A stretch of 33,737 nt of DNA from Patescibacteria group bacterium. GTDB taxonomy: Bacteria > Patescibacteriota > Minisyncoccia > Phycocordibacterales > DATDWN01. Within the stretch, counting starts at the first letter, position 1, and each line of letters begins with the position of its first letter. The stretch is taken from assembly GCA_013816135.1 (NCBI GenBank), contig JACDEV010000007.1:5065-38801 (forward strand), read 5' to 3'. Shown piece after piece: positions 5,306 to 26,044 of the stretch. A program made the translations under genes and the position numbers. The notes beneath the pieces are model-generated. The model was given only the letters and a program-made list of their open reading frames with translations, was not told the origin of the DNA and ran no database searches.

Positions 5306-5349
5306 TTTACAAAACAAAAACCCCATAGTCGGGGTTTTTGTTTTGTAAA
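5306..5349. terminator. Very long bidirectional terminator
   Basis: A perfect 19-bp stem with a 6-nt loop. CCCC/GGGG at the tip is backed by A/T runs, so it ends in T-runs on both strands. It lies 9 nt beyond the stop of the 45-aa gene, which it should terminate. Confidence 0.85.
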
Positions 5350-5357
5350 TTTTGAAA

Positions 5358-5495
5358 CTAAACCTTTACAATCATAAGGACTCCAACAACTATAGCGGCG
5401 ACAGCAGCTATAACATGAGAGTGACGGAATGGGGCAAAATGACTGACACCGTACGCAAGGAAGAAAACAATTTCAGCGATAGTGAGTAGTGACAT
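5358..5495 (-). CDS. 45-residue membrane peptide
   Basis: ATG at 5495, stop at 5358. The peptide begins MSLLTIAEIVFFLAYGVSHF, has a His-rich turn (HF-APFRHSHV) and then a second hydrophobic stretch rich in Ala and Val (VIAAVAAIVVGVLMIV), so it looks like two membrane helices. It has its own TATAAT-like box just upstream and a strong terminator just after, which argues for a real transcription unit. Family not recognised; it could be a small regulatory or toxin-like membrane peptide, with no evidence for either. Confidence 0.6.
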   Translation of the reverse strand: MSLLTIAEIVFFLAYGVSHFAPFRHSHVIAAVAAIVVGVLMIVKV

Positions 5496-5589
5496 TGTAT
5501 TATATTAAAAGTTATTAACCGACCTCAAATAATATTATAACATGTAATAGTAAAATTCGTCACTAGGTATTAAAAAGTAATTTTTGTAC

Positions 5590-7873: not shown

Positions 7874-8038
7874 CTAGGAATTATCGGGAACTCCATCCTC
7901 GTAGCAACTTCGGTCAATAATCAGCTCAAGATTACCTTCGAGCACCAGAGTAATGTTTGACCCATCAGTTCTCGCTTCAACAACCTTTTTACCCGTGAGT
8001 TTCTCGAGCAACTTCGTTATTTTGTCGATATCTTCCAT
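7874..8038 (-). CDS. 54-residue soluble protein with strong Shine-Dalgarno
   Basis: ATG at 8038, stop at 7874. It starts MEDIDKITKLLEKLTGKKVV and continues with alternating hydrophobic residues (NITLVLEGNLELIID) and an acidic end, so one helix and a two- or three-strand sheet are likely. A consensus AGGAGG stands 6 nt before the start, behind a consensus promoter, and a terminator follows: a complete single-gene unit. I do not recognise the family. Its codon use is more GC-rich than the core genes, like the genes at 14580 and 14872, which share the same start style. Confidence 0.7.
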   Translation of the reverse strand: MEDIDKITKLLEKLTGKKVVEARTDGSNITLVLEGNLELIIDRSCYEDGVPDNS

Positions 8039-8055
8039 CTAAACCTCCTATTTAA

Positions 8056-8084
8056 ATAATAGAATATTAATAATACATTGTCAA
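8056..8084 (-). promoter_or_regulatory. Promoter of the 54-aa gene
   Basis: On the minus strand TTGACA (8079-8084), a 17-bp spacer and TATTAT (8056-8061). The leader is about 10-12 nt and contains AGGAGG. Confidence 0.8.
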
Positions 8085-8089
8085 CTTTT

Positions 8090-8397
8090 CTCCGCGGGTA
8101 GGGAGATTTTTTTGAATTTCATTTCTTCGACACTTAGATCGCGGGTAGGGTGATCTCCCTCGAAATTCTTCATCTCGTCAGATGAAAAATTTCTGGGCAC
8201 CGGACTCGCGACAAACTCTACTGAGTTCGTAGACCGCGAGTCCGTTCGATCCCTACTCGTAAAGCTTCGCTTTGCTCCGCGGGTAGGGATATCGAAACTT
8301 ACAGTTTCTGTACACCTGTTCTATTTTTTGCTTCATTTCATTTTCAAAAAATTATCACAGGTTTTCGATCCCTAACATAAAACTGTCCCACAGTTTT
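8090..8397. repeat. Scrambled copies of the tRNA-Asn 3' end forming nested hairpins
   Basis: Fragments of the T-arm/acceptor end of the adjacent tRNA-Asn occur in the tRNA's orientation at 8090-8104, 8141-8150 and 8273-8290 (18 nt identical to the gene and its flank), and inverted at 8244-8256 and 8363-8373. The pair 8285-8290/8363-8373 forms a stem AGGGATCGAAA, extended by ACCTGT/ACAGGT. Its left arm carries an inserted TACAG-TTT-CTGTA hairpin followed by CACCTGT, which resembles the module found after mreB1 and greA. GGACTCGCG/CGCGAGTCC (8202-8242) and ATAAAACTG/CAGTTTTAT (about 8377-8399) are further hairpins. No protein gene is seen. Confidence 0.75.
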
Positions 8398-8410
8398 ATT
8401 CCCACTACGC

Positions 8411-8431
8411 AAAAAAGCCTTTCGGCTTTTT
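8411..8431 (-). terminator. Terminator of tRNA-Asn
   Basis: AAAAAGCC-GAAA-GGCTTTTTT on the minus strand, 5 nt after the tRNA end. Confidence 0.85.
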
Positions 8432-8435
8432 CTTG

Positions 8436-8507
8436 CTCCGCGGGTAGGGATCGAACCTACGACCAGCCGCTTAACAGGCGGCTGCTCTACCACTGAGCTA
8501 CCGCGGA
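8436..8507 (-). tRNA. tRNA-Asn (anticodon GTT)
   Basis: A 72-nt cloverleaf with a 7-bp acceptor stem TCCGCGG/CCGCGGA, D-stem GCTC/GAGC, anticodon stem GCCGC/GCGGC around loop CTGTTAA (anticodon GTT), T-arm GTAGG-TTCGATC-CCTAC and discriminator G. The CCA end is not encoded: CAA follows, so CCA must be added after transcription. Confidence 0.97.
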
Positions 8508-17802: not shown

Positions 17803-19050
17803 ATGCGACAATCTCAGCTTTTTACAAAGACACGAAAAGAGGCCCCTGCTGACGAAGTGTCAAAGAATGCACAGCTTCTAATAAAGGCAGGTTTTATTCA
17901 CAAAGAAATAGCGGGGGTTTATTCACTTCTTCCTCTTGGATTACGAGTTGTAAATAAAATTAAGAAAATAATTTCCACAGAAATGGAGGCTCTTGGATCT
18001 GTTGAAATTATTATGTCGACACTTCAGAATAAAGAAATTTGGGAAATTACAGATCGTTGGAGCGATGAGAAAGTCGATGTATGGTTCAAATCTGCTTTAA
18101 AAAATGGAAATGAAGTTGGTTTTGGGTGGTCCCATGAGGAACCTATTACAAATATGATGAAATTCCATACTGGAAGTTATAATGAGCTACCAAGATATGT
18201 TCATCAGTTTCAGAACAAGCTTAGAAATGAAGTAAGAGCAAAATCAGGAATAATGCGTTGTAGGGAATTTGTTATGAAAGACATGTACTCTTATTCAGTT
18301 GATGAAAAGCAGCATATGGATTTTTATAATAAGGTCACAGAGTCATACATGAAGGTTTTCAATAATATTGGACTTGGAGGAATTACATATATAACCTCTG
18401 CTTCAGGTGGATTATTTACTGAAAAATTCAGCCATGAATTCCAGACGTTGTGTGAAGCCGGAGAAGATAATATCTATGTTCACAAGGATGGGAAGTTAGC
18501 ACTCAATGAAGAGATTTGGAATGACGAAACTTTAGAAAAATTAGCTGTTAAAAAGGAAGATTTTGAATTTAAAAAAGCTGCTGAAGTCGGGAATATATTT
18601 ACTTTCGGCACTGGAAAGTCTGAACAGTTAGGTCTATTCTTCAATGATTCAGAGGGAAAGAAAAGGCCTGTTTTTCTTGGGTCATATGGTATTGGAGTAA
18701 CAAGATTAATGGGAGTAATAGCTGAAGTATTTGCAGATGAAAAAGGTCTCTCTTGGCCCAAAGAAGTTTCACCTTTTGCAGTACACTTAGTTCGACTTGG
18801 AGTAAGCAATGAAACCTTGGAATTTGCCGATAATATGTATAATGATTTACAGAAAAAAGGTGTGGAAGTTCTTTATGATGATAGAGATTTGAGACCAGGA
18901 GAGAAGTTTGCTGATTCAGATCTCATCGGTATTCCAGTAAGAATGGTAGTAAGTGATAAGACATTGGCTGTAAATAAAATTGAGGTAAAGTTTAGAAATA
19001 AAGCAGAAGCAGAACTGCTCGATATTGAAGAGGCTTTGAAAATTTTGTAA
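17803..19050 (+). CDS. proS: Prolyl-tRNA synthetase without editing insertion
   Basis: 415 residues against about 570 in typical bacterial ProRS. The class II core is complete: the LLPLGLRVVNKI region (motif 1), FQNKLRNEVRAKSGIMRCRE (motif 2) and SYGIGVTRLMGVIAE (motif 3), followed by the HGTP anticodon domain with VLYDDRDLRPGEKFADSDL. The INS domain, which hydrolyses Ala-tRNA(Pro), is missing: motif 2 leads within about 90 residues to TFGTGKSEQLGLFF. Proofreading must therefore be absent or done by a separate protein. It follows rseP in the common order and has its own leaderless-type promoter. Confidence 0.95.
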   Translation: MRQSQLFTKTRKEAPADEVSKNAQLLIKAGFIHKEIAGVYSLLPLGLRVVNKIKKIISTEMEALGSVEIIMSTLQNKEIWEITDRWSDEKVDVWFKSALKNGNEVGFGWSHEEPITNMMKFHTGSYNELPRYVHQFQNKLRNEVRAKSGIMRCREFVMKDMYSYSVDEKQHMDFYNKVTESYMKVFNNIGLGGITYITSASGGLFTEKFSHEFQTLCEAGEDNIYVHKDGKLALNEEIWNDETLEKLAVKKEDFEFKKAAEVGNIFTFGTGKSEQLGLFFNDSEGKKRPVFLGSYGIGVTRLMGVIAEVFADEKGLSWPKEVSPFAVHLVRLGVSNETLEFADNMYNDLQKKGVEVLYDDRDLRPGEKFADSDLIGIPVRMVVSDKTLAVNKIEVKFRNKAEAELLDIEEALKIL

Positions 19051-19194
19051 TAAGAAACCCCACTATTTTAGTGGGGTAGCTTGTGGGGACCATGGGATAG
19101 CTAATTCCCAGGAACAGTGGAAGTCTGAACCAATTCTTGATTCCACCACGAGCGCATGTTATTGGCTTGTCCGTAGAATGTACGAACCGCTCCA
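19051..19194 (-). ncRNA. Candidate small RNA with own promoter and terminator
   Basis: Between proS and mreB2 but transcribed against both. A consensus promoter (19201-19229) is followed by about 140 nt of GC-richer sequence and a terminator (CCCCACT/AGTGGGG at 19058-19076, then TTTCTTATT on the minus strand). In between, on the minus strand, three hairpins can be drawn: GTTCGTA-CATTC-TACGGAC enclosed by GAGCG/CGCTC, GTGGAA/TTCCAC, and CC-TGGGA/TCCCA-T-GG. No long open frame with a start signal fits; an 18-codon frame from ATG near 19158 (MRSWWNQ...) is possible. I cannot match it to 6S, SRP RNA or tmRNA. Confidence 0.6.
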
Positions 19195-19200
19195 ATTACA

Positions 19201-19229
19201 TTTATATATAAAATAACAACTTTTGTCAA
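19201..19229 (-). promoter_or_regulatory. Promoter of the candidate small RNA
   Basis: On the minus strand TTGACA (19224-19229), 17-bp spacer, TATAAA (19201-19206), one of the closest matches to consensus in the window. Confidence 0.75.
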
Positions 19230-19273
19230 GTATAATTTATTAATACAAAAGAGTGTTAGTATAGCTATCGAAG

Positions 19274-20335
19274 ATGATAAAAAATTTTGAACAACTTAAA
19301 AGATATTTTTCCAACGATATTGGTATTGACCTTGGAACTGCTAATACGTTGGTCTATCTTTCCGGAAAAGGGATAGTTTTAAATGAGCCATCTGTTGTTG
19401 CTGTAAATCAGAAGACAGGGAGAGTAGTAGCGGTAGGCAAAGACGCAAAACAAATGCTGGGACGAACTCCAGGACATATCGTAGCTATTAGGCCGCTTGT
19501 TGATGGTGTCATTTCTGATTTTGAAGTTACGGAGGAAATGATAACGTATCTTTTAAATAAAGCTGAAAGGAGTAATAAAAAACTACTTGGTCCACGGGTT
19601 GTGGTTGGTGTTCCTTCTGGAATTACAAATGTTGAAACAAGAGCTGTTCGTGATGCAACAAAAAATGCTGGAGCTTCAGAGGTTTATATTGTGGAAGAAC
19701 CAATGGCAAGTGCGATTGGAATTCGATTGCCTATTATGGAGCCGATTGGAAATATGATTATTGATATAGGTGGTGGAACTTCAGATATTGCAGTCATATC
19801 ACTTGGTGGAGTTGTGCGTTCAAAAAACCTAAGAATAGCGGGAGATAAATTAAATAATGACATCATCGGCTATGTGAGAAGTGAATTCAAGATATTAATC
19901 GGTGAGAAAACTGCTGAGACTATCAAAATTTCTATTGGAGCAATTCTCCCTGGTGATGAGCCGTTAGAAGCTTCCATAAAAGGTCGAGATCTTATTTCTG
20001 GACTTCCAAGAGAAGTAGTTATTACTGATTCAGATATCAGAGAAGCCATATCTCAATCTATTGATACTTTGATCGAGTCTGTAAAAGAAGTTCTGGAAAC
20101 AACTCCTCCGGAAATTTTGGCAGACATTATGCAGAGAGGGATTTACTTAACCGGTGGAGGAGCACTAATAAAAGGCTTGGCAGAGATAATTTCAGAGTAT
20201 ACAAAAATTCCTGTTCATATCGCTCAAGATCCTTTGACAGCAGTTTGCCGTGGCACTGGTATCATTTTAGAGAATATTGAAGCTTATAGAGATGTTTTAA
20301 TTGCAAACGAAGATGAATTACCCCCTAAAAAGTAA
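19274..20335 (+). CDS. mreB: Rod-shape protein MreB, copy 2 (operon copy)
   Basis: 353-residue actin homologue with DIGIDLGTANTLVYLSGKGI, VVVGVPSGITNVETRAV, MIIDIGGGTSDIAVISLGG and GIYLTGGGALIKGLAE. It has a longer N-terminus (MIKNFEQLKRYFSND) that could form an amphipathic membrane-binding helix, unlike copy 1. It directly precedes mreC, with overlap, in the classic elongation operon, so it is probably the main MreB. Copy 1 differs throughout, so the duplication is old. There is no Shine-Dalgarno. Confidence 0.96.
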   Translation: MIKNFEQLKRYFSNDIGIDLGTANTLVYLSGKGIVLNEPSVVAVNQKTGRVVAVGKDAKQMLGRTPGHIVAIRPLVDGVISDFEVTEEMITYLLNKAERSNKKLLGPRVVVGVPSGITNVETRAVRDATKNAGASEVYIVEEPMASAIGIRLPIMEPIGNMIIDIGGGTSDIAVISLGGVVRSKNLRIAGDKLNNDIIGYVRSEFKILIGEKTAETIKISIGAILPGDEPLEASIKGRDLISGLPREVVITDSDIREAISQSIDTLIESVKEVLETTPPEILADIMQRGIYLTGGGALIKGLAEIISEYTKIPVHIAQDPLTAVCRGTGIILENIEAYRDVLIANEDELPPKK

Positions 20336-25977: not shown

Positions 25978-26044
25978 GTGGGGATAAACACCTTGAAAGT
26001 GGGATAGAGTGGTATATAATATTAATTAAGTGGGAAGAAGTGGG
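25978..26044 (+). promoter_or_regulatory. mraZ promoter with MraZ-box repeats
   Basis: TTGAAA (25993-25998), 16-bp spacer, TATAAT (26015-26020). GTGGG/GTGGT repeats occur at 25999 and 26009 (10 bp apart, inside the spacer) and at 26030 and 26040 (10 bp apart, just after the start point), with one more at 25978. Tandem GTGGG with 10-bp period is the known MraZ operator, so MraZ probably represses its own cluster by covering the promoter from both sides. Confidence 0.85.

Follow-up and report, generated by a model that had tools for sequence, protein, structure and literature searches.

In a bacterium of the Patescibacteria group, the genes proS (prolyl-tRNA synthetase) and mreB lie in the same orientation on a 33,737-nt stretch of DNA (assembly GCA_013816135.1, contig JACDEV010000007.1, positions 5,065–38,801, forward strand), which is referred to as a whole as "the window" and which supplies the coordinates used below. 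The spacer between the two genes carries, on the minus strand, a near-consensus promoter, a region predicted to encode a transcript with several hairpins, and an intrinsic terminator that adjoins the end of proS (Table 1). The mreB gene itself has a likely −10 box (TAGTAT) ~12 nt before its ATG (window 19256-19274, as read from the sequence), with apparently little leader and no Shine-Dalgarno, and a GTGCTA(G/C)TATA box also occurs near mreB in several congeners.

Table 1. Features of the proS–mreB spacer in the window and of the corresponding spacer in three relatives.
Feature	Position	Strand	Description
proS	17803..19050	+	Prolyl-tRNA synthetase; PF00587, PF03129; upstream neighbour, convergent with the unit
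Predicted transcript, ~145 nt	~19050..19197	−	Placed from promoter and terminator
Intrinsic terminator	19057..19077	−	Hairpin ACCCCACTA-AAA-TAGTGGGGT, then TTCTTATTAC
Predicted three-way-junction domain	19079..19153	−	Closed by GCU/AGC and GUGG/CCAC; outer pairs 0.87–0.96
18-codon frame MRSWWNQELVQTSTVPGN	19101..19157 (incl. stop)	−	Tandem Trp codons; no Shine-Dalgarno
Predicted 5' hairpin	19161..19196	−	AUUGG....GUUCGUA-CAUUC-UACGGAC...CCAAU; pair probabilities 0.81–0.99
Promoter	19201..19229	−	TTGACA (19229-19224), 17-nt spacer, TATAAA (19206-19201); 11/12 consensus
mreB	19274..20335	+	PF06723; downstream neighbour, divergent from the unit
Spacer of G005 (L005)		−	30-aa ORF with AGGAGG, terminator beside proS, 10/12 promoter
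Spacer of G010 (L014)		−	75-aa ORF, terminator beside proS
Spacer of G021 (L027), another family		−	149-aa ORF, terminator beside proS

A probable minus-strand transcription unit

The near-consensus promoter and the proper terminator described in the initial annotation were both recovered. The terminator stem (19077-19057) comprises nine pairs, five of them GC, with a 3-nt loop and the tail TTCTTATTAC; read along the minus strand, the stem is followed by TTCTTATT. Transcription would start 5–8 nt past the −10 element (19196-19193) and end within the terminator tail.

Promoter sites that agree with the consensus at 11 of 12 positions number three in the window as against about two expected under a first-order Markov null, so that such a site is by itself not significant. 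The remaining two are placed directly upstream of ORFs (8084 on the minus strand, before a 54-aa ORF, and 25993 on the plus strand, before the ORF at 26030) and sites of this kind are therefore supported as real promoters here. When a promoter of at least 11/12 was required to have a terminator of seven or more pairs 50–250 nt further on, a single joint unit was found in the window, that of the proS–mreB spacer, and none in the shuffled sequences (0/40). The region is also GC-richer than its surroundings, as had been claimed, with a GC fraction of 0.466 (19050-19197); the value is 0.362 in the window as a whole, 0.355 in proS and 0.211 in the promoter region next to it (19198-19273). Judged by these sequence signals the unit possesses both its own promoter and its own intrinsic terminator, the combination expected of a stand-alone sRNA gene, and it is likely that the spacer holds a real minus-strand transcription unit.

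The RNA had been described as antisense to its neighbours. Running from ~19196 to ~19050, it would end beside the proS stop codon (19050) and start ~80 nt upstream of mreB (19274), and thus overlaps neither gene; the opposite-strand coding overlap that defines a cis-antisense RNA is absent for proS as well as for mreB.

Other small genes and repeats are found on the minus strand of the window. A candidate gene of 54 aa (MEDIDKITKLLEKL..., 7874-8084) is preceded by TTGACA-17-TATTAT and AGGAGG and has a terminator-like hairpin downstream, and a hydrophobic small ORF of 45 aa (MSLLTIAEIVFFLAYG..., 5318-5534) comes with a terminator and a promoter of 10/12; only a few bases separate TATAAT from its ATG, which suggests a leaderless mRNA. 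In window 8103-8449 the 3' end of tRNA-Asn (CCCTACCCGCG) is present in three further copies (8288, 8150 and 8103), which lie within ~350 nt downstream and might be leftovers of repeated integrations or duplications at that gene.

Predicted fold, known families and relatives

Prediction gives a well-defined fold (most pair probabilities >0.8), which consists of the 5' hairpin, an open linker of 7 nt (AACAUGC), the three-way-junction domain and the terminator hairpin, in this order. Its z-score is −3.64 with the terminator and −1.95 without it (8 of 200 shuffles were as good), while a value of −1.39 was obtained for the core read on the opposite strand; the hairpins beyond the terminator are therefore modest evidence. 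Of the several stable hairpins originally reported, that of the terminator is indeed strong, but the body of the RNA exceeds only modestly the degree of structure expected from its composition.

A covariance-model search of Rfam at the gathering cut-off matched no family to the element, which agrees with the earlier remark that features of 6S, SRP RNA and tmRNA are not apparent. The sub-threshold matches at E ≤ 10, namely Hrs1 (21.1 bits, cut-off 56.4, plus strand), Trp_leader (16.8 bits, cut-off 41) and abiF (16.1 bits, cut-off 37), are driven mainly by the terminator stem. The tmRNA (RF00023) is found away from this locus (G000:C1:9786-10181, 101.7 bits). 6S RNA (RF00013) was detected in none of 31 genomes (this one and 30 relatives). 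For SRP RNA, the large form (RF01854) was negative in six genomes (G000, G003, G005, G007, G010, and G011) and the small form (RF00169) in four, and a pattern for the apical GGAA motif, within one mismatch, found nothing in six genomes; the SRP RNA of this genus is either very diverged or missed by the search filter. Hfq gave no match over the cut-off in this genome or in five congeners.

Neither blastn nor a single-sequence covariance model (R1) detected a homologue of the element beyond short chance-level matches among the 11 congeners and about 1,000 wider genomes, part of which were covered by only one of the two methods. Blastn was run against 61 relatives as well as 397 genomes from the order and 384 from the class, and yielded just the short matches expected by chance. 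Run on 99 relatives and on 380 genomes from the phylum, R1 gave one partial match (18.5 bits, E = 0.04), which was taken as chance. A highly diverged relative could have escaped the R1 searches, since their filters were stricter and discard weak matches and a model built on one sequence has little power. Within the genome itself, nothing else resembles the element or is complementary to it at E ≤ 0.01. The phage collection gave two short matches (E = 0.6), both to the terminator end, and the plasmid collection gave none; when viral and genome collections were scanned with a pattern for the 5' hairpin, scattered matches were returned, those in genomes belonging to unrelated taxa, and the pattern of the core apical hairpin returned none in viral contigs. 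The literature searches listed no paper dealing with sRNAs of lineages like this one. The initial annotation had set conservation with covariation among near relatives as its own test of the RNA; the 11 congeners show no conservation, and thus offer no homologue to align for covariation, so that the RNA is either lineage-specific or not functional.

The spacer itself is very variable in length: nine genomes of the genus, including this one, have between 121 and 578 nt from proS to the IGIDLGT motif of mreB. In three relatives (G005, G010, and G021) it is occupied by minus-strand ORFs that are unrelated and that end, like the present unit, in a terminator beside proS. The −35 element of the G005 promoter lies at offset 92 from the mreB landmark compared with 90 here, and in G010 a TTGACA, read by eye, also stands ~31 nt from the mreB −10 box; the promoter offset of G021 is not comparable in the same way, as its mreB start was not fixed by the landmark search. 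The proS–mreB spacer is a variable slot in which the layout recurs and the cargo differs. In G005 the 30-aa ORF (MIVNMSDFAEIIEKF...) ends at TGA and the frame goes on with coding-like sequence (...FFQRIFADYSPKDLRQAIRDYKRTAK); this frame has a weak DUF7182 match (E = 0.038) and is possibly a broken gene or a case of recoding.

A proposed orphan small RNA and competing readings

The best single reading, which we put forward tentatively, is a stand-alone, lineage-specific unit making an untranslated orphan sRNA of ~145 nt. The initial proposal of a probable new small RNA is retained to this extent, an untranslated transcript of no known family being the best-supported product, and its antisense wording is abandoned. 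From the minus-strand promoter an untranslated RNA would be produced that ends at its own intrinsic terminator and would act in trans as an orphan riboregulator, pairing via its exposed linker and loops without Hfq. We infer transcription and non-translation from the promoter, the terminator and the absent Shine-Dalgarno; the proposed trans base-pairing without Hfq is the weakest step. The joint promoter–terminator unit, the raised GC, the well-defined fold and the same layout in three relatives argue for such an sRNA; the want of a homologue, a core fold only modestly better than shuffled sequence and the absence of an Hfq match over the cut-off count against it. Orphan intergenic sRNAs of bacteria have a stand-alone promoter and an intrinsic terminator, measure 50–300 nt and are lineage-specific. 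The unit resembles them in its own promoter and terminator, its size, its intergenic position, the lack of an ORF with a ribosome-binding site and the GC raised in an AT-rich genome; it differs in that no Hfq was detected in this genome and in being recognized here from sequence alone.

The main rivals to an sRNA are an inert remnant and an effect in cis. The first, which appears unlikely though it deserves serious attention, holds that the promoter and terminator are left from a decayed or replaced minus-strand small gene and are perhaps still transcribed with no selected function; a unit of that sort would present much the same picture as a functional sRNA unit. It is favored by the unrelated small ORFs that fill the slot with the same layout in relatives, no comparable ORF being left here, as well as by the core z-score of only −1.95 and the lack of conservation. 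However, in an AT-rich genome a decayed unit would not be expected to keep a near-perfect promoter, an intact terminator and a raised GC content, and no residual similarity to the small ORFs of the relatives is visible by eye.

The second rival, of rather low probability, is a cis-acting antisense or interference element, in which transcription of the unit or duplexes with read-through RNA would insulate mreB from the transcription of proS. The spacer yielded no terminator on the plus strand downstream of proS, which makes read-through towards mreB plausible, and it is only to a proS–mreB read-through RNA, to which it is by position fully complementary, that the RNA could be antisense. The promoter of the unit also stands back-to-back with that of mreB. 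Against this, congeners with a distance of only 121–135 nt from proS to the mreB landmark do without such a unit, and the RNA overlaps neither coding region.

A more far-reaching version of the sRNA reading, in which the spacer would be a docking slot, conserved together with a divergent promoter passed on by descent, where different species place small genes that are rapidly replaced, the present occupant being an Hfq-independent, structured, species-specific regulatory RNA, is speculative and improbable.

There is little to recommend a tiny gene whose product is the 18-residue MRSWWNQELVQTSTVPGN, or a leader peptide with Trp codons that serves as an attenuator. The tandem-Trp frame noted initially is present (19157-19101); as was also noted, it has no credible start signal and no trp gene lies downstream. 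Its AUG sits in the unpaired linker (unpaired probability ~0.95–1.0) and its Shine-Dalgarno energy is −3.2 kcal/mol vs. −11.4 kcal/mol for the 54-aa AGGAGG ORF in the same window, a comparison that is weak alone because proS (−3.6), mreB (−1.1) and the small ORF at 5495 (+1.3 kcal/mol) also score poorly; some of the genes here appear to be translated without a Shine-Dalgarno. Taken by its sequence, the 18-codon frame is probably not translated. Like the tryptophan operon leader (RF00513), the unit has a short frame with tandem Trp codons and a terminator after it, but the score of 16.8 bits is far under the 41-bit cut-off, a Shine-Dalgarno is lacking here, and the Trp residues are codons 4–5, whose stem does not act as an anti-terminator. 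Downstream the minus strand carries only the antisense of proS, so that an attenuator would have nothing to control, and with no downstream gene, a sub-cut-off score and no anti-terminator this candidate was dropped. A 67-aa frame opening with TTG (18992-19195) starts near the predicted transcript start; having no stop before the terminator, it was not considered a sensible gene.

Chance signals in an AT-rich spacer giving no minus-strand transcript are likewise very improbable: chance alone would supply about two promoters of this score in the window, but the joint promoter–terminator unit was absent from all the shuffles. Finally, a strongly diverged housekeeping RNA can practically be set aside, for although 6S and SRP RNA could be hidden, being undetected in the genomes listed above, and 6S RNA is of a similar size range, both are vertically conserved and all 11 congeners are without the element, no 6S or SRP match appears even at E ≤ 10, the predicted fold does not pair the 5' and 3' ends and has neither the end-to-end closing stem nor the central bubble of 6S RNA, and the SRP apical motif was not found, within one mismatch, in six genomes.

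Significance of the candidate RNA

Lineage-specific sRNAs are common in bacteria and the result is therefore modest on its own: the unit is probably one of many species-specific small RNAs, as yet a candidate. If transcribed, it would be a candidate for a regulatory RNA, in a small genome in which neither Hfq nor 6S RNA could be detected, and lineage-specific small genes, both coding and non-coding, would turn over at one site between conserved genes.
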